Of a stretch of DNA of 64,000 nt, positions 13,265 to 57,769 are shown piece after piece. Both the position numbers and the translations under genes were made by a program. The notes under the pieces were generated by a model. That model was not told the DNA's origin. It made no database searches and worked only from the letters and a program-made list of their open reading frames with translations. Numbering within the stretch: the stretch's first letter is position 1; each line of letters opens with the position of its first letter. The stretch comes from Fimbriimonadaceae bacterium (GTDB lineage: Bacteria > Armatimonadota > Fimbriimonadia > Fimbriimonadales > Fimbriimonadaceae): contig JADLBH010000011.1 of NCBI GenBank assembly GCA_020847855.1, positions 28,037 through 92,036 on the forward strand. The letters run 5' to 3'.

Positions 13265-13273
13265 CCGGCCTTA

Positions 13274-13671
13274 TGGCAATGAGACGCTCCGGGCTCGCTG
13301 CCGGCCGAGTAGTTCTGGGTGCCACCTTGATCTTCGGCGGATTGGTCGGGATCGTGCCAGCAAGGCCCTACTACGTCCTGGGCGTACCGAGGGATCTTGG
13401 CACCGTGGATGCCGACTTCGGCGCGACCGTGCCCGCGGTGCTGATCAACGCCACCCGGTCCGAGATGGATGTCCGCTATTCCGCGTTCGGGTGCGGCCCT
13501 GGTGGGACTGCAAGCGTTCCGCCCTTCAGCTGCCGCGGTATCGAGTTGCACTTCGCAGGCGGCGGACAGAACGGCCCACACATACTTCGTGCCATAATTC
13601 AAGGTGCAGGGGATCGGTTCGTAACCACGTGCATAGTGGAGACACGGGCGATCCTCACCAGGAAGCGATGA
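13274..13671 (+). CDS. Small exported protein, weakly DUF1573-like (cassette A, gene 1)
   Basis: A 132-residue protein beginning with a signal-peptide-like segment (MAMRRSGLAAGRVVLGATL). The mature part has the order hydrophobic strand, Asn (AVLIN), Cys (FGCGPG), then VPPFS and a further strand, resembling the Ig-like DUF1573 fold; this match is weak. The cassette B counterpart at 31737 shares the segment S-V/I-PPFS and the same overall layout. A second ATG lies two codons downstream. It has an almost absent 5' leader and its stop overlaps the pseudopilin start (ATGA). Function unknown. Confidence 0.6.
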
Positions 13672-14429
13672 TGCGTCGAGGGTTCACCTTGGTCGAGTTG
13701 CTCGTCAGCGTCGCCATTTTCGCGGTACTGACTGCGATCCTGGTGCCCGTCTTGGGTTCGGCAAAGCGTCGGAGCCAAGCCGCGGTCGCGGTCGCCCACG
13801 TTCGCCAATACGCCCAAGCCGCACTGATCTACGAATCCGCCTACGAGGGATTGCCGGAGGCGAACAATTTGACGGGCGGGTATTGGATCTCGGCCATGGG
13901 GCTGATGAGGGCCGGACGGGCACAATTGGTAGACCCGACCTTCCGGGTACCAGATCCGAAGAGCAATCTCGTAGCGTTGAGCGGTTATGCGATCAACGGT
14001 TGCCTAGGCTCACGTCCATTCGCCGACGAACCGAGTAGGACCGTGATCTTCGCTACAGTCGGCGAGTTTGCCGACATCAACGTCTTGGGCGTATCCGAGA
14101 TGAACGTGGTCGCGCTGATGGCTCCAGACTCTATCGAGTACGGGGAGATCGGAGACAAGGAGTTCTCCAAGACGAACCAACGGTTGATCCGCCGCCAGGA
14201 GTACGGTGCCTTGCGCCATATGGGCAAGGGAGCCTATTCGTTCCTCGACGGCCACGCAAAGCTGCACGCGCCCACGGAGTTCACCTACCCAACGGACGCA
14301 TACATGTGCTTCCCTCGACCAGGAAGTAGGATGGCCGGGCCGAACGGTGGGCTTCGCTTCTTCACGACTTACAATCTATCGGCTCGCGGTGATTCGGCAC
14401 CGGAACCTCACGGAGCGATGAACCGCTGA
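13668..14429 (+). CDS. Type II secretion pseudopilin-like protein with an H-X9-DG motif (cassette A, gene 2)
   Basis: A 253-residue protein starting MMRRGFTLVELLVSVAIFAV, the prepilin signal cut before Phe by prepilin peptidase, with the conserved Glu5. Near the C-terminus H-(9 residues)-DG is seen in LRHMGKGAYSFLDGHAK, the hallmark of the abundant DUF1559-type pseudopilins of Planctomycetes and Armatimonadota. It is inserted into the plane of the inner membrane. It overlaps gene 1 by 4 bp (ATGA). It may be a dedicated pseudopilin for exporting the cysteine-rich protein encoded next, which is an inference. Cassette B lacks it. Confidence 0.82.
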   Translation: MMRRGFTLVELLVSVAIFAVLTAILVPVLGSAKRRSQAAVAVAHVRQYAQAALIYESAYEGLPEANNLTGGYWISAMGLMRAGRAQLVDPTFRVPDPKSNLVALSGYAINGCLGSRPFADEPSRTVIFATVGEFADINVLGVSEMNVVALMAPDSIEYGEIGDKEFSKTNQRLIRRQEYGALRHMGKGAYSFLDGHAKLHAPTEFTYPTDAYMCFPRPGSRMAGPNGGLRFFTTYNLSARGDSAPEPHGAMNR

Positions 14430-14448
14430 ACGAAAGAGTCCCAATCTC

Positions 14449-14820
14449 ATGAAAAGTAACACTTCCCTTGAACGAAGCCGCCAGCTCACCAAGCTGTTCG
14501 GCATTTCGGTAGTGATGTTAGTCCTGTGCGGTCTGGCAACTGCGCAGATCTTCAGCCAGTGCAACTACGTACCGAAGGATCCGGTGACCGAGCCTTGCAA
14601 CGTGGCGACGGGTTGCACCGACACGTGCCAGCGAACCTACTATGACGAGGCGGTGTGTGAAGTGAATCCACTGTCTTCGTGCCTCAAGGAGATCCAATCT
14701 CAGTACGACACAGTGAAGACTTACGGATGTGTGCCTGGCACTACCTGCCATTGCCCGTCAAACGTTCCAGCAATGAACACCTCGTACGTCCTCGTTGATC
14801 GCGAACGATGCACGAGCTAA
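14449..14820 (+). CDS. Secreted ten-cysteine protein (cassette A, gene 3)
   Basis: A 123-residue protein with basic residues, then a hydrophobic signal segment (LFGISVVMLVLCGLATAQ), giving a mature chain of about 90 residues with ten cysteines. The spacing is C-11-C-5-C-3-C-9-C-7-C-15-C-5-C-1-C-18-C. The paralogue at 32147-32500 has C-11-C-6-C-6-C-9-C-6-C-15-C-7-C-1-C-17-C, and both carry a TC-x-CP motif. An even cysteine number and conserved spacing suggest five disulphides and an extracellular fold. I do not recognise the family. Possible roles are toxin, adhesin or signalling peptide; none is shown. Confidence 0.75.
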   Translation: MKSNTSLERSRQLTKLFGISVVMLVLCGLATAQIFSQCNYVPKDPVTEPCNVATGCTDTCQRTYYDEAVCEVNPLSSCLKEIQSQYDTVKTYGCVPGTTCHCPSNVPAMNTSYVLVDRERCTS

Positions 14821-15851
14821 AGCACTGGTCGGCGCTACTATTCCTAGCGATTGCGAGCACCCACCAGCTAGCTTGGTGCGCGGAGGGTCGGACGCTGAAG
14901 TACAGCGTTCACTTGTGGATCTTGCCTCAAAGAATAGACGTGGAAGCTCGCGTCGAGGACGCACTGTGGAGGCTTCGGGAGGGAGGGATGACCCGAGAAA
15001 CGGCAGAACGCAATCGGAGCGCTCAGCGGGCGTTCTTCGAATCGCAAACGAAGCCACATGAACTCAAAGGTTCACTCCTACTCTATACAGACGGACGTCG
15101 TCGGCGCGTTGATTACTTCGTTCCTTTGTTGGGGACGGCCGTACGAGCGTTGCCCTATAGTGAGAGCTTTGACGGCCAACTGACGATGACGAAGGAGCAA
15201 GGACGGGGCTCTGTGTCGTTAGGTGACAGTACATCGTTCTTTCGTTCGGTCGCTCACTCGGTGTTCCTCGCTGGGACAGTGCCGGTCGGTTCTTCGTTCA
15301 CTTCCACAGAGGAACCTGGTGTCGGGTTGCGCATCGGATACGACCACGGTGTCATCGGTCGAGAGACGACAACTTTGAAGGGAACTTTGTTCGAGCCGCG
15401 ATCCGGAGAGTGTCGAATCGAGTCCAAGGAAGGGCGCGTGTGGCAGGAGTACTCTATCGAAGCTCAGGGTTCGCTGCGTTCCGCAGTTGAAGGTGGTGCG
15501 CCATACCGCGTTGTGGTCACGACGAAGGACGCGAAAGGTACCGTTCTGAGGCGTGAGAAGTTCGAGTTCGTGGCCGCGACGAATACTCAGTTTGAGCCTG
15601 TCCTCGGAAGATTGGAGGCTGGGTTGCACGTCTCGGACGGCAGGGCGACGACGAATGAGGGTGGCCTTTCGTACTTGTGGCCAGGCTCGCTTCCGACGGT
15701 AGAGGCTGCTCGCCAGCTCACCCGCTCCCACCTCGAGTCCAATGGTTCAGTGTCCCGAGAGAAATGGGCGTTACCGCTCCTCGGGGCTGGTGCGCTGATC
15801 CTTGCCTTGCCGTTTCTACGTAAGATCTTGCGAAAGATGAGGCGTTCGTGA
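14808..15851 (+). CDS. LRxGGMT protein with a C-terminal membrane anchor (cassette A, gene 4)
   Basis: A 347-residue protein that starts inside the end of gene 3 (13-bp overlap). It has a signal peptide (HWSALLFLAIASTHQLAWC), an early helix with LREGGMTRETAERNR, a mostly beta-rich body (…YSESFDGQLTMT…), and ends in a TM segment (LLGAGALILALPFL) with a strongly basic tail (RKILRKMRRS). It should be anchored with its body outside. The cassette B paralogue (32635-33681, 348 residues) shares LRxGGMT, ESxDGxxT and a late xxYxxxGxLP segment. Function unknown; the coupling suggests it holds, processes or presents the ten-cysteine protein. Confidence 0.7.
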   Translation: MHELKHWSALLFLAIASTHQLAWCAEGRTLKYSVHLWILPQRIDVEARVEDALWRLREGGMTRETAERNRSAQRAFFESQTKPHELKGSLLLYTDGRRRRVDYFVPLLGTAVRALPYSESFDGQLTMTKEQGRGSVSLGDSTSFFRSVAHSVFLAGTVPVGSSFTSTEEPGVGLRIGYDHGVIGRETTTLKGTLFEPRSGECRIESKEGRVWQEYSIEAQGSLRSAVEGGAPYRVVVTTKDAKGTVLRREKFEFVAATNTQFEPVLGRLEAGLHVSDGRATTNEGGLSYLWPGSLPTVEAARQLTRSHLESNGSVSREKWALPLLGAGALILALPFLRKILRKMRRS

Positions 15852-30120: not shown

Positions 30121-31488
30121 ATGAACCACACGTTCAGAACTAGAAAAGCAGAATCTGGTCGCCCCCGCCGACGTCGAACCCGAGGCGAAGAGAGGCCGGA
30201 CCTCACCGTAGACGTTGACTCGCTGCCGACCATTGACGCCAACCATTTCGACAAAATGTCGGCGACCGAGCTCGCCAAGGACGCGAAGAAGGCCAAGATC
30301 AGCCTCGACCTGCCCCGAAACGTCGTGATCGAGGAGCTCGTCGCCAAGGCCAACCCCGAAGAGATCTACCGCAAGGGTGTGCTCGAAGTCCTCTCCGACG
30401 GCTGGGGGTTCCTCCGCCGAGACAACTATCAGCCCAGCATCGAGGACTCCTACGTCAGCCAAAACCACATCAAGAAGCACGGACTCCGGCCCGGCGACTC
30501 GGTCTTCGGACTGTGCCGCGCACCCAAGGAAGGCGAGAAGTACCACGGCATGCTCCGAGTGGAGATGGTCAACGGACACGGCACCCTCTCCCCCGAGACC
30601 CAAACCCGCCGCAACTTCGACACCCTCACCCCCCTCTTCCCCGACGAGGTCCTCCACCAAGAGACCACCCCCGACAAGATCATCGGGCGCATCATTGACC
30701 TGATCTCCCCCATCGGCAAGGGACAGCGAGCCTTGATCGTCGCCCCACCCAAGGCGGGAAAGACCACCATCCTCAAGTCCATCGCCAACTCCGTCACCGA
30801 GAACAACCCCGACGTCTACCTCATGGTCCTTCTCGTGGACGAGCGGCCCGAGGAGGTCACCGACATGAAGCGATCCGTCAAGGGCCAGGTCATCAGCTCC
30901 ACCTTCGACGAGCCCGCAGAGAACCACATGCGGGTCACCGACCTCTGCCTCGAACAGGCCAAGCGCCTCGTCGAGGACGGCCGAGACGTCGTCATCCTCC
31001 TCGACTCCATCACCAGGCTCTCCCGCGCCAGCAACCTCACCATCAACCCCAGCGGGCGCACCCTCTCCGGAGGCCTCGACCCCGCCGCACTCTATCGCCC
31101 GCGCAGGTTCTTCGGCGCCGCGCGAAACATCGAGGAGGGAGGCTCGCTCACCATCATCGCCACCGTCCTCATCGAGACCGGCTCCAAGATGGACGACAAC
31201 ATCTTCGAGGAACTCAAAGGGACCGGCAACAGCGAGCTCGTGCTCGACCGCGACCTCGCCGAGCGCCGCATCTGGCCCGCCATCAACGTCCGCAGCAGTT
31301 CCACCCGACACGAGGAACAGCTCCTCGAGAAGGGCCAGCTCGAAGCCGTCTACCACCTCCACCGCATCCTCGCCAACAGCAAGGACACCGTCGAGGCGAC
31401 CGACCAGCTCATCAAGCTCCTCAAGCGGATGCCGACCAACAAGGCGTTCCTCGAGAGCGTCATCGCCAAGACCCGCGCCACGGTCTAA
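30121..31488 (+). CDS. rho: Transcription termination factor Rho
   Basis: 455 residues from ATG 30121. An Arg-rich N-terminus ([13 protein letters not shown]) precedes the RNA-binding cold-shock-like domain ([11 protein letters not shown]). The ATPase core has Walker [22 protein letters not shown] and the Arg-finger region. It is a hexameric RNA helicase that ends transcription. The last 28 codons plus stop (31404-31488) recur almost unchanged at 33738-33822, downstream of cassette B. The gene is unusually rich in C-ending codons. Confidence 0.96.
31404..31488 (+). repeat. Direct repeat, copy 1: the rho 3' end
   Basis: These 85 bp are the last codons of rho. They match 33738-33822 at 83 of 85 positions: the first 78 bp are identical and the two differences are at 31482 and 31487 (TAA versus TGA stop). 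The two copies bracket cassette B. See the finding on integration. Confidence 0.95.
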
Positions 31489-31573
31489 CGCCCTGACGAG
31501 CTCGCAGCAACCGCACGGATACGTTTGCGGACCAAACGGTTCTTGTCCACCGTCGTCATCTGTGGGAAGATTC

Positions 31574-31648: not shown

Positions 31649-31663
31649 ATCGTAAGCATGAAC

Positions 31664-31708
<45 letters not shown>

Positions 31709-31736
31709 TCGCTACCATAGGAACGTTCGACGAATC

Positions 31737-32147
31737 GTGGCTTCGGTCGCCGCGCTGGCCAGTACGCTTGTGCTCGTGTCGCCGTTTGCGCCAATTCAAC
31801 GACTTGTACAACCTAGTGCTTGGCCCGAAGGCGAGCACCTGGTGAAACTGAACTCCAAATCCACGAGTGTGTACTTCGTACGAGTAGCGAATCCGACGCT
31901 TTCCAATCTCCGGGTGGCCATCGCGTCCGACTGTTGCTCCATCGAAGGAATCGCCTTTGAATCAATCCCGCCCTTCAGCACGAGGGTCTTGCGAGGCGAG
32001 GTGGATTGGCAGCACGCGAGAGTGGAGGGAGGTGTCCTGCGCGTGGCAGTCCGGATTGCTTCCGATACTGGAAACCGGGATCAACTCCTTGCCTATCACG
32101 TCGCGGAAGGCGACTACGTGAGCGCCCGCTACGGAGGAGGAAAGTAG
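31737..32147 (+). CDS. Small exported protein, weakly DUF1573-like, out of frame with its likely start (cassette B, gene 1)
   Basis: The given coordinates are the longest frame from GTG 31737 (136 residues), but that form lacks a ribosome binding site and the basic part of its signal peptide. The codons just upstream in the same frame read NRYHRNVRR, an ideal n-region, followed by the core IVASVAALASTLVLV. They continue from the ACAG tract, whose ATG is at 31658. With nine ACAG units the product would be one 161-residue exported protein; with ten, as here, it is off. The mature part has a strand ending in FVRVANP, then DCCSIEG and SIPPFS, matching the layout of the cassette A protein at 13274. 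Confidence 0.65.
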   Translation: MASVAALASTLVLVSPFAPIQRLVQPSAWPEGEHLVKLNSKSTSVYFVRVANPTLSNLRVAIASDCCSIEGIAFESIPPFSTRVLRGEVDWQHARVEGGVLRVAVRIASDTGNRDQLLAYHVAEGDYVSARYGGGK

Positions 32148-32500
32148 TGCTGCACCTGCTTAAGGATCGAAAGGTGCAGCTTGTCCTTGCAGTAGCGATG
32201 TTAACGAGCGTGGCGAACGCCAACTTCTTACGATGCTACAGTTCTCAGCGTGAGTTCATTGGCATCGCATGTCTTCAGAGCGAATCCGGGTGTCCGAGCC
32301 CCAATCCAGAATGTGTACGCCACGTCGTGACGGACTACACTTGTGCCGGAATAGGTTTCGGCTGTAGCCTAGCGTTCGGAACACTTACGGGCCAACGTTG
32401 GGTGATTCCGTGTGTCACAACGATCGTAGGCACGTGTGCTTGCCCAGAGCTGAGCGGGCCCCCAACCGAGGAGTACAACTATGCCGGATACTCGTGCTAA
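32147..32500 (+). CDS. Secreted ten-cysteine protein (cassette B, gene 2)
   Basis: 117 residues from GTG 32147, which overlaps the stop of gene 1 by one base (TAGTG) and has GGAGGAGG 6 nt upstream. The signal peptide (KVQLVLAVAMLTSVANA) releases a mature chain with ten cysteines spaced C-11-C-6-C-6-C-9-C-6-C-15-C-7-C-1-C-17-C. This matches the cassette A protein at every one of ten positions with small length changes, and both have TC-x-CP near the end. Family unrecognised; probably a disulphide-rich secreted effector or surface protein. Confidence 0.75.
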   Translation: MLHLLKDRKVQLVLAVAMLTSVANANFLRCYSSQREFIGIACLQSESGCPSPNPECVRHVVTDYTCAGIGFGCSLAFGTLTGQRWVIPCVTTIVGTCACPELSGPPTEEYNYAGYSC

Positions 32501-32634: not shown

Positions 32635-33681
32635 ATGAAAATGAGCAGAACGCAAACCGATCGTCCCTATTTGGACGCCATGCCGGAGCCGACTCACCGT
32701 CGAGCGGCTTGGCGATCCCTCGTACCGTTCACTCTGGCCCTCACCGCCTGCGGCTGGGCCCAGACCGTGAAAGGCACCATGACCACCACGCTCCCGCCGA
32801 GCGGAAAGACGGTCCAACAAGAGTACGACCGAAGGGTCTTCGAGCTTCGACGCGGAGGAATGACCGAGAACCAGATCCAAGCCTCCGACGAAATGATCCG
32901 TCACAGTGCCGAGCGGCTCGCCGCCGGACTGGGGAGCACCGGGCCATTCGAGTACGTCCGAGACGGCGTGAACACCTGGGTCACGTATCCCGTCAGCTCG
33001 ACCAGCCTCGGCAGCGACCAGTCGCAGCACATCGAGTCGTACGACGGCACCACGACCGTCCATGTAGGGCCCTCGGGCACCGTCGTCGAGGCCGGCGACA
33101 AGCGCACCTTCACCGGCAACGCGCTCTGGCAGGCCGCGCTCTGCGGCACCGTCCAGTCTTGGCTACAAGAGGTCTCCGCGACCCAGGGGCCGGACGGCGA
33201 AGTCGTCGTCTTCGAGGCCGTGAAAGACGAGATGATCCACCGCCTCACCGTCACCTACGCAGACTCGGCGAGGGCGAGGGTGGTCGCGGTCGACCAGGGC
33301 TACGTCACTCCGGCACAGTTCGTCAAGCCGGGGGTGGACCCGTACGTCCGGGCCGCCAAGGCGACGGTCCAACAGTCCCCCGCCCAGGTTGACTTCGACT
33401 TCTTCGCAGGGGGCAAAGCGACGCAGCACATCACGCTCGCGATCGAGAGCGAGTCGCCCGACGCCTCGGTGGCGCTCCTGCGGGGTGTCAAGCCCGGCTC
33501 GAAGGTCGTGGACCTTCGCCTCGGGGCGAAGGCGCCGGTCAACTACGTGTTCGACGGGAAGCTGCCGGAACACTCGGCCATCGCCTCGGAGCCCGCGCCC
33601 GTCGGGCTCGCGCCGCTCGGCGCTTCGTTCGCCGGTCTCGTCGGCCTCGTTGCCGCAGTCTGGCTCTGGAAGCGCAAATGA
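32635..33681 (+). CDS. LRxGGMT protein with a C-terminal membrane anchor (cassette B, gene 3)
   Basis: 348 residues from ATG 32635 (upstream in-frame codons are probably untranslated; ATG 32680 is an alternative). Signal segment LVPFTLALTACGWAQ, then an early helix with LRRGGMTENQIQ, a beta-rich body with IESYDGTTTVH, and a C-terminal TM segment (FAGLVGLVAAVWLW) ending KRK. It is one residue longer than its cassette A paralogue (14808-15851). The 3' part is more GC-rich than genes 1 and 2. A possible receptor, anchor or immunity-like partner of the ten-cysteine protein; the role is not known. Confidence 0.7.
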   Translation: MKMSRTQTDRPYLDAMPEPTHRRAAWRSLVPFTLALTACGWAQTVKGTMTTTLPPSGKTVQQEYDRRVFELRRGGMTENQIQASDEMIRHSAERLAAGLGSTGPFEYVRDGVNTWVTYPVSSTSLGSDQSQHIESYDGTTTVHVGPSGTVVEAGDKRTFTGNALWQAALCGTVQSWLQEVSATQGPDGEVVVFEAVKDEMIHRLTVTYADSARARVVAVDQGYVTPAQFVKPGVDPYVRAAKATVQQSPAQVDFDFFAGGKATQHITLAIESESPDASVALLRGVKPGSKVVDLRLGAKAPVNYVFDGKLPEHSAIASEPAPVGLAPLGASFAGLVGLVAAVWLWKRK

Positions 33682-33717: not shown

Positions 33718-33737
33718 CCACTTCCTACTGACCCCGG

Positions 33738-33822
33738 CCAGCTCATCAAGCTCCTCAAGCGGATGCCGACCAACAAGGCGTTCCTCGAGAGCGTCATCGC
33801 CAAGACCCGCGCCACCGTCTGA
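33738..33822 (+). repeat. Direct repeat, copy 2: duplicated rho 3' end
   Basis: Matches 31404-31488 at 83 of 85 positions and keeps the rho reading frame through to a TGA stop (…[20 protein letters not shown]). No start codon, ribosome binding site or other rho sequence precedes it, so it is a fragment. Homology begins abruptly at 33738. Confidence 0.95.
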
Positions 33823-34116
33823 CCCTGCGCGGGAAGGGCGTGGCCCCCCTGCCCGGCGGGGGAGCGCCCGCGTGCGCCAGGCGAGCCCCTCGCGTCGCTC
33901 GTCCCGCCCGTAGCCGTGCCCGGAGAGGCATCGAGGGTGCTCAGGGAGCTTTCTGGACCGTCTAGGGAACCCCCTGGACCGCTCAGGGAGGCCCGAGTCG
34001 CCCTGTTGACGCTCAATGAGCGACGAACGAGCCTCCACGAGCACTCAGTCCGGGCGGCCGAGCCCAACTTCTCGCCCTGTCCCGCACTGGGGCGGTCGCT
34101 TTGGTAGCCTTGCGGC
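33823..34116. other. Gap between the rho fragment and yajQ
   Basis: The gap contains a GC-rich hairpin (CCCCC at 33845-33849 with GGGGG at 33858-33862) and the small degenerate tandem repeat listed below. No gene was recognised. Together with 33682-33737 and the rho fragment this is the longest non-coding stretch in the window. Confidence 0.4.
33941..33994. repeat. Degenerate 20-21 bp tandem repeat, about 2.5 copies
   Basis: The units TCAGGGAGCTTTCTGGACCG, then TCTAGGGAA…CTGGACCG, then TCAGGGAGGCCC follow one another. They share the pattern TC(A/T)AGGGA…CTGGACCG. Function unknown. Confidence 0.5.
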
Positions 34117-40995: not shown

Positions 40996-42122
40996 CGCCC
41001 CCTCACTTGGAGCGCCACGGGCTCCGCGAACCAAGCCGCGGCTTCCACGACTTCGCTCGGGCTGAGCTTCGCAGCTACGGACGAGAGGTACCCCGTCGCC
41101 CGCACTCCGGTGGGAGCGCCGAGGCGGGCCTCGAGCCTTGCCCTGGCAAAAGGCGAGTCCGGGGCCAGCGCACGTGCCAGGTCTCGTATCCCAGCCTCCG
41201 CAAAGGGCGCCACCGCGGTCCCTGCGTTTGTATCGAGGCCGCTCCAATCCGACCCTGCCGACCAGAGCGAGACCACCGCCTGTTGAAAGGACTCGGTGAA
41301 GAGCAGGACACGTTGCTCCCCGGCCCTTTGGAGCGCGAATCCAGCCGCGAGCTTGGCCAGAGTCGCTTGGTTCTCCAGGCTGGAGACAACTACGGCGCGG
41401 GTGCTTCCTCTCGCCGAGACCTCGGCGGTGAGCACTTCGCTTCTAGGCCCCGGAGCGAACTTGGAGGGGGGGGCGCCCCGCCGTGCAGGAAGGGTCCCAA
41501 GGGTCGAATAGGCGAGGTTTGTGGCCTCTTCGATCGTGACGTCGCCGGTGATCGCGACCACGATCGAGCGCGGATCGAAGACCTCCGCTTGGAGAGAGCT
41601 CAAGACAGGGGGGGGGACTGCGGCCAAGGTCGAGGCGTCGCCCATCGGGTCCGGGGCGCCCTCGCCGAAGGCAAGCGCCCAAGCCGCGGCAGCGTGAACC
41701 GTGTAGGGAGGGCGGATCGCCGCTTCCTCGCCGATCACCTTTGCCTCGTTCGCAATCTGTTCCGCTGTGAACTCGAACGGTCCCGCTGCCTCCTTGGCGA
41801 CCTGGAGGAAAGTCTCAAGCGCGAGGGGTGGGCCGTCCATCCCGATCTCGACGGCCTCTCGCGTCGTCTCGGCCCGGAGGTACCCGCCCATGCGCTCGAC
41901 ACGAGAATCGAAGTCCCGCTTGGGCCCGAGTGCGACCAAGTGCTCGAGCAGGTGGCGACACCCTGAGCGGGCCGGGGTCTCACCAACCCCGCTGGCCGCC
42001 ATGACGACGGCAACGCGACCTTCCACCGGCATCGGCTCGATGGCGACGACAACCCCATTGTCCAATTCGAGCCGTGTCACCCCCGGAACGAGCAGTGCAA
42101 GGGCGGCGAGAGTGGCAGTCAT
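40992..42122 (-). CDS. M16-family zinc peptidase (catalytic subunit)
   Basis: 376 residues with a signal peptide (LAALALLVPGV). The inverted zinc motif HLLEH is in SGCRHLLEHLVAL, and the downstream Glu is in IANEAKVIGEEAA, as in M16B enzymes. It should cleave small proteins or peptides outside the cytoplasm. It overlaps the SDR gene upstream and its partner downstream by 4 bp each, forming a tight three-gene operon. Confidence 0.85.
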   Translation of the reverse strand: MTATLAALALLVPGVTRLELDNGVVVAIEPMPVEGRVAVVMAASGVGETPARSGCRHLLEHLVALGPKRDFDSRVERMGGYLRAETTREAVEIGMDGPPLALETFLQVAKEAAGPFEFTAEQIANEAKVIGEEAAIRPPYTVHAAAAWALAFGEGAPDPMGDASTLAAVPPPVLSSLQAEVFDPRSIVVAITGDVTIEEATNLAYSTLGTLPARRGAPPSKFAPGPRSEVLTAEVSARGSTRAVVVSSLENQATLAKLAAGFALQRAGEQRVLLFTESFQQAVVSLWSAGSDWSGLDTNAGTAVAPFAEAGIRDLARALAPDSPFARARLEARLGAPTGVRATGYLSSVAAKLSPSEVVEAAAWFAEPVALQVRGR

Positions 42123-56506: not shown

Positions 56507-57769
56507 CTAGACGGAGGCGAGCGACCGACCGACCCGCTCCACGATCTCGTCCACCGTGGGCTCGTCAATGATGAGGGGGGGGGTCAACCGGAACGTGCGT
56601 TGCCGAGTTTCTTTCGTGAGGATCGCGTTCTCCAGAAAAGCCTTCGAGAGGGCCTTCGTATCGAGGCCGTCCGCGACCTCGATCCCAAAGAGCAGGCCGC
56701 GCCAACGAACCTCCTTGATCCGGTCGGATCCGAGCGATGCAAGGCCCTCTGCAAGCCTGCCGCCCATGTGCTGAGCGCGGTCGGACAGTCCTTCCCGCTC
56801 CATCTCCGCCATCGCGGTGAGTGCGACCGCAGCCCCCAGGGGATTGCCGCCAAAAGTGGATCCATGATCCCCAGGCACGAAGACCTCGACGACCTCGCGC
56901 GTGCCGACGGCGGCGGAGACGGGGAGGACACCGCCCCCCAGCGGCTTGCCCACCGACATCAGGTCAGGACGCGCCGTCTCCCACTGCCAAGCGAAGCGCT
57001 TGCCGGTGCGACAGAAGCCAGTCTGGACCTCGTCCCAGATTAGGAGCACCCGGTTTCGGTCACAGATCTCGCGCAGACCCGCCATGAAGCCTTCCTCCGG
57101 CACGATCACGCCTCCCTCCGCCTGAATCGGCTCGAGGAGGACGGCCGCGGTGTTGGGATGGATCGCTTCCTCGATCGCCGCCAGGCTGCCGAACGGCACG
57201 ACCTTGAAGCCGGGTGTGAACGGCCCGAACCCATCCTTGTAGCCCGGCTCGGTACTAAAGCCAACGATGGTCGTCGTCCTACCGTGGAAGTTTCCCTCGC
57301 CGACGATGATCTCCGCCTTGTCCTGCTCCACCCCCTTGACCGTATAAGCCCATTTGCGCGCGAGCTTGATGCAGGTCTCCACCGCCTCCGCCCCGGTGTT
57401 CATCGGGCACACCATGTCGAGGCCCGCATACTCGGCTAGACCTTTCATGAAGAGGGCGACCTCCGGGGCATAAAAGGCTCGGCTCGGAACCGCCATCCGG
57501 TGCAACTGCTCCACGATCGCCGACACGATCGCCGGGTTCAAATGACCGTGGGCGACAGCGGAGTACGCACCGATGCAGTCAATGTACTCCTTGCCCGCGC
57601 CATCCCAGACCCGACAGCCGTCCCCGCGAACCAGGTTCACAGGGAGCGGCTTGTAGTTGTGAGCCCCATACTGCTCGGTCATAGAGATCGCTTCCGAGTC
57701 CGTGAGCTCGCTCGAAACCGCCGAAACCCCCTTGGCAGTGATCTCTTCCAGCAAGGTCGTTGTCGTCAT
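56507..57769 (-). CDS. rocD: Ornithine--oxo-acid aminotransferase
   Basis: 420 residues from ATG 57769. The signature YGAHNYKPLPV, GAEAVETCIKLARKW, ILVGEGNFHGRTTT-like segment (here IIVGEGNFHGRTT), DEVQTGFCRTGK and the PLP lysine in SVGKPLGGGVLP identify it. It converts ornithine and 2-oxoglutarate to glutamate semialdehyde and glutamate in arginine catabolism. Divergent from the FliL-like gene. Confidence 0.92.
   Translation of the reverse strand: MTTTTLLEEITAKGVSAVSSELTDSEAISMTEQYGAHNYKPLPVNLVRGDGCRVWDGAGKEYIDCIGAYSAVAHGHLNPAIVSAIVEQLHRMAVPSRAFYAPEVALFMKGLAEYAGLDMVCPMNTGAEAVETCIKLARKWAYTVKGVEQDKAEIIVGEGNFHGRTTTIVGFSTEPGYKDGFGPFTPGFKVVPFGSLAAIEEAIHPNTAAVLLEPIQAEGGVIVPEEGFMAGLREICDRNRVLLIWDEVQTGFCRTGKRFAWQWETARPDLMSVGKPLGGGVLPVSAAVGTREVVEVFVPGDHGSTFGGNPLGAAVALTAMAEMEREGLSDRAQHMGGRLAEGLASLGSDRIKEVRWRGLLFGIEVADGLDTKALSKAFLENAILTKETRQRTFRLTPPLIIDEPTVDEIVERVGRSLASV

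Follow-up and report, generated by a model that had tools for sequence, protein, structure and literature searches.

The question raised by a 64,000-nucleotide stretch of the genome of a Fimbriimonadaceae bacterium (phylum Armatimonadota), which is the window of this study (C11:28037-92036 of G000, a genome of 2.53 Mb in 41 contigs and 97% complete), is whether two similar gene cassettes that it carries, A and B, form a system of their own, what such a system could do, and how it could be controlled. Each cassette includes a short gene (gene 1), a gene for a predicted secreted protein with ten cysteines, and a gene for a partner protein predicted to be anchored by its C-terminus. We consider that there is about an even chance that they represent a type of cassette, so far undescribed, whose disulphide-rich product is secreted or placed at the surface and which would be switched stochastically by changes in the length of a simple repeat. 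The repeat tract, which in part of the family lies at the front of gene 1, is regarded as the most telling feature of the cassette.

The cassettes proved genuine, and they belong to a wider family than the window alone would indicate. A profile of the partner protein found matches (E 0.001) in 31 of 291 genomes of Armatimonadota; the window's own family is represented by 84 genomes besides the source genome. The surroundings of the cassettes were retrieved for the genomes with profile matches, and these loci are labelled L0xx-L1xx. Among 48 partner open reading frames (ORFs), a count that includes two loci twice on account of frameshifts, 39 have directly upstream a cysteine-rich ORF with a hydrophobic N-terminal part, as against 6 of the 191 other long ORFs of the same loci; the nine that lack it are in L016, L018, L037 (second piece), L038 (one of three), L090, L092, L097, L103 and L108. 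A gene 1, accepted at a profile E value of 0.01 within 2.6 kb upstream of the partner ORF, accompanies 30 of the 48, a figure into which L017, L037 and L105 each enter one gene 1 twice and in which 14 copies, that of cassette A included, are those on which the profile was trained. A prepilin gene lies beside 13 of the 48, and one more, in L088, escaped the motif used. The order gene 1, cysteine protein, anchored partner, on which the original prediction had been built, is thus clearly conserved in Armatimonadota, with the amendment that cassette A holds a fourth gene, encoding a prepilin.

The partner profile also revealed a third cassette (C) in the source genome, on contig C37, with the same order. 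The cysteine and partner frames are intact in A, B and C, and neither B nor C has a prepilin gene. The partners of A and B are related (BLASTP E 1e-5), and their gene-1 products are weakly similar when compared as a pair (E 0.002); the gene 1 of cassette A matches the rebuilt gene-1 profile with an E value of 1e-31, the sequence itself being part of that profile. The genes had been said to overlap or nearly touch; the cysteine and partner genes of cassette B are separated by about 134 bp, if 32635 is taken as the partner start.

The statement of the original prediction that the cysteine spacings of the two proteins agree was confirmed, the gaps being 11-5-3-9-7-15-5-1-18 in A and 11-6-6-9-6-15-7-1-17 in B. 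When the gaps were turned into a loose ten-cysteine pattern, 32 of the 44 family proteins (38 from the loci and 6 from the database) matched it, as did only 30 of 22,000 shuffled sequences. The 12 proteins outside the pattern have 4 to 13 cysteines in the trimmed piece, and at least two of them are broken or shortened (L017, P0010); the protein of cassette C keeps nine of the ten cysteines. It had also been required that the cysteine proteins retrieve each other, and they do so only by profile: plain BLAST of A against B gave an E value of 0.94. Their kinship is visible only through the cysteine frame, the profile and the gene order. The cysteine profile matched 12 of the 291 genomes at E 0.01, seven matches being clear and five chance-like, and none of five cysteine proteins scanned against Pfam scored above a family cut-off, NVEALA included. 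For the protein of cassette A, the ten highest-ranked VIA rows of a structure model (predicted local distance difference test, pLDDT, 73.5) are VEGF-family chains. A likeness of the family to the cystine-knot growth-factor fold (VEGF, PDGF, IL-17) is possible: CxC lies within the frame, being present in all 32 matches because it is built into the pattern, and CxGxC is frequent, found in 11 of the 18 matches with a three-residue gap and absent from both cysteine proteins of the window. The disulphides themselves are predicted. The cysteine protein of L015 is identical to P0005, which is recorded in 43 contigs, so that data for a population study likely exist; one source assigns it to Chthonomonas sp., yet L015 is within the window's family.

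Cysteine proteins and partners are paired. Their similarity matrices agree, with a Mantel r of 0.84 over 36 pairs, and of 0.94 when one group of 13 pairs is taken alone (p 0.0005 in both cases), which indicates that the pairs are inherited together. In the 13-pair group the leader of the cysteine protein is conserved (mean identity 0.74) and the mature part is divergent (0.32). In L105, where five cysteine-partner pairs lie within 10 kb, the leaders and the upstream DNA of the paralogues are nearly identical and the mature parts differ, which suggests exchange or recombination at the front of the cysteine genes. The 39 partner proteins scanned against Pfam matched nine families with one member each, the best E value being 0.0035; 31 have a hydrophobic C-terminus and 35 a hydrophobic N-terminus at the cut used (1.6), with the window partners, at 1.54 and 1.57, just below it.

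The pairing of one cysteine gene with one partner gene immediately after it, the co-divergence of the two proteins, the tandem pairs of L105 and the contrast between leader and mature part would all suit a secreted bacteriocin-like toxin whose anchored partner protects the producer, the tandem arrays holding several such pairs. We take this to be the main rival, surface display being our first guess, and consider it possible though doubtful. No PADLOC match was obtained among seven proteins scanned, the partners are large for immunity proteins, and the recurring prepilin and DUF1573-like genes would be left unexplained. The cysteine protein is moreover under purifying selection between close orthologues: in the orthologue pair with a usable synonymous rate (dS), the nonsynonymous rate (dN) is 0.049 and dS 0.462 for the cysteine protein, and 0.079 and 0.386 for the partner.

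The switching that we favour is suggested by the front of gene 1. In cassette B, the start codon is followed by an ACAG tract with ten whole units, and the frame of this ATG stops after 20 codons; the body of the gene is open in a different frame. The gene had been described as encoding 161 residues, a length that corresponds to nine units, so that one repeat was probably miscounted. A ribosome-binding-like sequence precedes the ATG, and the body frame shows, also by eye, an arginine-rich stretch ahead of a hydrophobic part, which fits a signal peptide starting upstream of the tract. In cassette C an ACAG tract lies behind a GTG start codon, and the body is likewise out of register; for both tracts the frame, as computed, depends on the number of units. 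Four consecutive ACAG units occur in the source genome in cassettes B and C only and in none of the 84 other genomes of the family. The 291 phylum genomes contain one further site (L111, G278:C19:1009), in a member of a different family; it directly follows an ATG, and the 2.5 kb around it have no match to any cassette profile. These tracts, their clustering at gene 1, the prepilin and the disrupted register of gene 1 in B had been overlooked in the original prediction.

Such tracts are concentrated at gene 1 in the family as a whole. With thresholds set beforehand, 449,900 bases were scanned and 16 simple-repeat tracts were found, 12 of them within the gene-1 zones (from 150 bases upstream to 60 downstream of the start), which cover 1.4% of the total length (binomial p 1e-19). 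Counted per gene, 12 of the 30 gene-1 zones and 1 of 239 control zones carry a tract (Fisher p 4.5e-12); with looser thresholds the figures are 16/30 and 3/239, and with the loosest 18/30 and 5/239. The unit varies among genomes and can be ACAG, AG, G, C, T or A. Outside the zones there are four strict tracts: one poly-G tract in each of the two copies of a regulator-like gene of L087, one in L100 within the comparable gene preceding gene 1, and one in L018, 68 bases ahead of a solo partner gene. In some whole genomes poly-G of ten or more is rare: G028 and G031 have it at three places each, one of them at the cassette. The window also holds two G9 runs apart from the cassettes (41608-41616 and 56575-56583).

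Tract length differs in three of four pairs of paralogous copies within one genome. L096 and L108, both in G164, encode identical gene-1 proteins behind tracts of G10 and G17, respectively, with one base of difference in 150 on one side of the tract; the frame of a sigma-factor gene reaches the gene-1 start in the G10 copy and ends at the tract in the G17 copy. The two copies of a 918-bp repeat in L087 carry G10 and G11, again with a single mismatch in the 150 bases that adjoin one side of the tract, the 111 and 112 of 150 of the ungapped count on the other side being distorted by a one-base offset between near-identical sequences. In L094 the tracts are (AG)7 and (AG)9, and the flanks show 12 differences in 150 bases and 10 in 45.

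It could be argued that the genes are degenerate, that tracts and broken frames have accumulated in them neutrally, and that the copies in B and C are on their way to disappear. The gene 1 of B and of C is indeed out of register, the frames of L017 and L037 are split, and many cassettes are flanked by direct repeats. However, decay would not put tracts of different units at one and the same position of gene 1 across genera, and in A, B and C the frames of cysteine protein and partner have stayed open; we regard this explanation as distinctly unlikely.

The features of cassettes A and B are listed in Table 1; the gene 1 of cassette A had been placed one base downstream of its ATG.

Table 1. Features of cassettes A and B and of the flanks of cassette B, in window coordinates
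Feature	Position	Strand	Remarks
Cassette A gene 1	13273..13671	+	132 residues, DUF1573-like family; stop codon overlaps the prepilin start
Cassette A prepilin	13668..14429	+	N-terminal methylation motif and H-X9-DG segment
Cassette A ten-cysteine protein	14449..14820	+	123 residues, predicted secreted; structure model pLDDT 73.5
Cassette A partner	14808..15851	+	347 residues, C-terminus hydrophobic with basic tail
Direct repeat copy 1	31400..31489	+	3' end of rho-like gene, ahead of cassette B
Cassette B gene 1	31658..32147	+	ATG 31658, repeat tract, then body in different frame; out of register in this assembly
(ACAG)10.8 tract	31664..31706	+	Immediately 3' of the cassette B gene-1 start codon
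Cassette B ten-cysteine protein	32147..32500	+	117 residues; GTG start overlaps the gene-1 stop
Cassette B partner	32635..33681	+	348 residues, C-terminus hydrophobic with basic tail
Direct repeat copy 2	33734..33823	+	rho-like 3' end, 3' of cassette B

The direct repeat that flanks cassette B is 90 bp long and 97% identical between its copies, and the additional copy of the 3' end of the rho-like gene (rho and msrA names were assigned by eye) looks as if the cassette had arrived together with the end of the neighbouring gene or had duplicated it. Other repeats were seen near cassettes elsewhere. A few kb from cassette C there is an exact direct repeat of 64 bp (L013:11284-11347 and L013:12722-12785), and the cassette of G062 lies between copies of a 313-bp repeat, 95% identical, that contains the 5' part of an msrA-like gene (L019:5492-5804 and L019:8643-8955). 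In L015, 1-2 kb from the cysteine cassette, two 257-bp direct repeats of 95% identity enclose a segment (L015:7382-11496) with an integrase-like gene, of the integron type by eye, together with TIR-like and macro-like genes.

Gene 1 is, by its sequence relatives, of the DUF1573 kind. Eight of these relatives were scanned against Pfam DUF1573 (PF07610, cut-off 26.1): those of L091 (36.8) and L094 (33.3) exceeded the cut-off, those of L089 and L096 (24.2) fell below it, and four had no match. A CGC motif occurs in several relatives. In contrast, the window copies show no DUF1573 match in Pfam and have CGP (A) or CCS (B, and also C) in its place. Two reviews count DUF1573 as one of the selenoprotein families that have a UGC motif (PMC9312934, PMC13188914), which hints at a redox role of the motif; in the cassettes such a role could be tied to the folding of the cysteine protein. 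A DUF1573 gene also figures in an iron-response list from Bacteroides (PMC10434189). The view that no described family has this composition does not hold in full, because gene 1 is of the DUF1573 kind and a prepilin is often included.

The prepilin of cassette A matches Pfam N_methyl (31.9 bits, cut-off 21.2) and TIGR02532, and has an H-X9-DG segment, found by motif. It resembles in both traits other prepilins with N_methyl and H-X9-DG and differs from them in being encoded inside the cassette. Small exported cysteine-containing proteins, NVEALA, are encoded near DUF1573 genes in Bacteroides, an association for which our search found no paper. The cassettes are similar in joining a small exported cysteine protein to a DUF1573-type gene, and differ in the lack of an NVEALA match among the cysteine proteins scanned; we know of no anchored partner of the cassette kind in the NVEALA setting.

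For each of the 30 gene-1 copies the adjacent upstream gene was recorded, and 11 of these genes, picked because they looked like regulators, were scanned. In eight of the 30 copies this neighbour contains sigma-70 region 4 above the Pfam cut-off (L038, L093 twice, L095, L096, L099, L105 and L108); in L087 and L100 it falls below that cut-off, and in L109 it is a GerE-type regulator. These sigma genes give some ground for a surface signalling system, in which the cysteine protein would act as a ligand outside the cell and the partner would resemble a receptor, with a connection, in distant members, to the sigma factor. This also seems distinctly unlikely to us: cassettes A, B and C have no sigma gene beside gene 1, the cytoplasmic tail of the partner consists of a few basic residues, and the Pfam scan of the 39 partners found no anti-sigma domain.

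The switched cassette that we favour could work as follows. In B and C, replication slippage in the ACAG tract near the start of gene 1 would alter its reading frame; elsewhere, slippage in runs of G, C or T would alter the spacing within the promoter or leader, or slippage would change how gene 1 is coupled to a sigma-factor gene upstream. In the ON state gene 1 would be translated, and the downstream genes with it by means of overlapping stop and start codons. The product of gene 1, an Ig-like protein of the DUF1573 type, may act as a periplasmic helper of the disulphide-rich protein, which would be exported, perhaps with a type IV pilus-like machine to which the cassette prepilin would belong; the partner dedicated to it, anchored by its C-terminus, would then hold or assemble it. 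Our guess is that the cysteine protein would be a surface component that varies, with adhesion or contact as its most likely task, and that only part of the cells would display it.

Several observations weigh against this proposal. At strict thresholds 18 of the 30 gene-1 copies, that of cassette A included, carry no tract; the 30 copies are not independent (L093 and L094 enter twice, and L096 and L108 form a pair); and the two copies in L093 have equal tracts, C9 in both. Some genomes, such as G079 and G164, are rich in poly-G tracts throughout. The tracts of B and of C both leave gene 1 out of register, so that no in-frame tract was seen in the source genome. The downstream genes carry, by eye, ribosome-binding-like sequences of their own, so that coupling may be weak. 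The purifying selection estimated for the cysteine protein, and for the partner, gives no indication of fast surface evolution between close orthologues. Finally, switching, expression and localisation are predicted from sequence, and adhesion is a guess.

The closest parallel is found in the simple-sequence contingency loci of Neisseria, Campylobacter and Moraxella, in which G/C or tetranucleotide tracts lie behind the start codon or in the promoter and a change in their length shifts the frame or the spacing. Contingency loci are also present in Haemophilus. In the cassettes the tract lies in the promoter, the leader or the 5' coding part of gene 1, and its length is predicted from the sequence to change the frame or the coupling. 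The difference resides in the genes concerned, an undescribed family in place of lipopolysaccharide enzymes or known adhesins, and in the host phylum: our search found no paper that links Armatimonadota or Armatimonadetes with phase variation. Nor did it find any on the cassette itself, any that links DUF1573 with "cysteine-rich", or a relevant one on the cystine knot in prokaryotes or on secretion in Fimbriimonadaceae, the matches obtained on these two subjects looking unrelated.

A bolder proposal, which we consider unlikely, is that of an undescribed surface system of the whole phylum, with a cystine-knot-like ligand and an anchored partner that are diversified in tandem arrays, and in which random control by repeat length was re-invented with different units at the same gene. 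If true, it would be, by our literature search, the first contingency system reported from Armatimonadota and the first bacterial look-alike of cystine-knot ligands. Repeat-driven switching is best known from host-adapted pathogens such as Neisseria and Campylobacter, which vary their surface structures in this way. The recurrence of tracts of different units at one gene family of a mostly environmental phylum would suggest that switching of this kind is also favoured where no host immunity is at play, with phages, grazers or neighbours as possible selecting agents. The cassette also points to an unknown protein family with a fixed ten-cysteine frame and a matched partner, open to expression and testing, and the tract offers a direct handle on the switch, since its lengths can be read without culture in existing metagenome reads.

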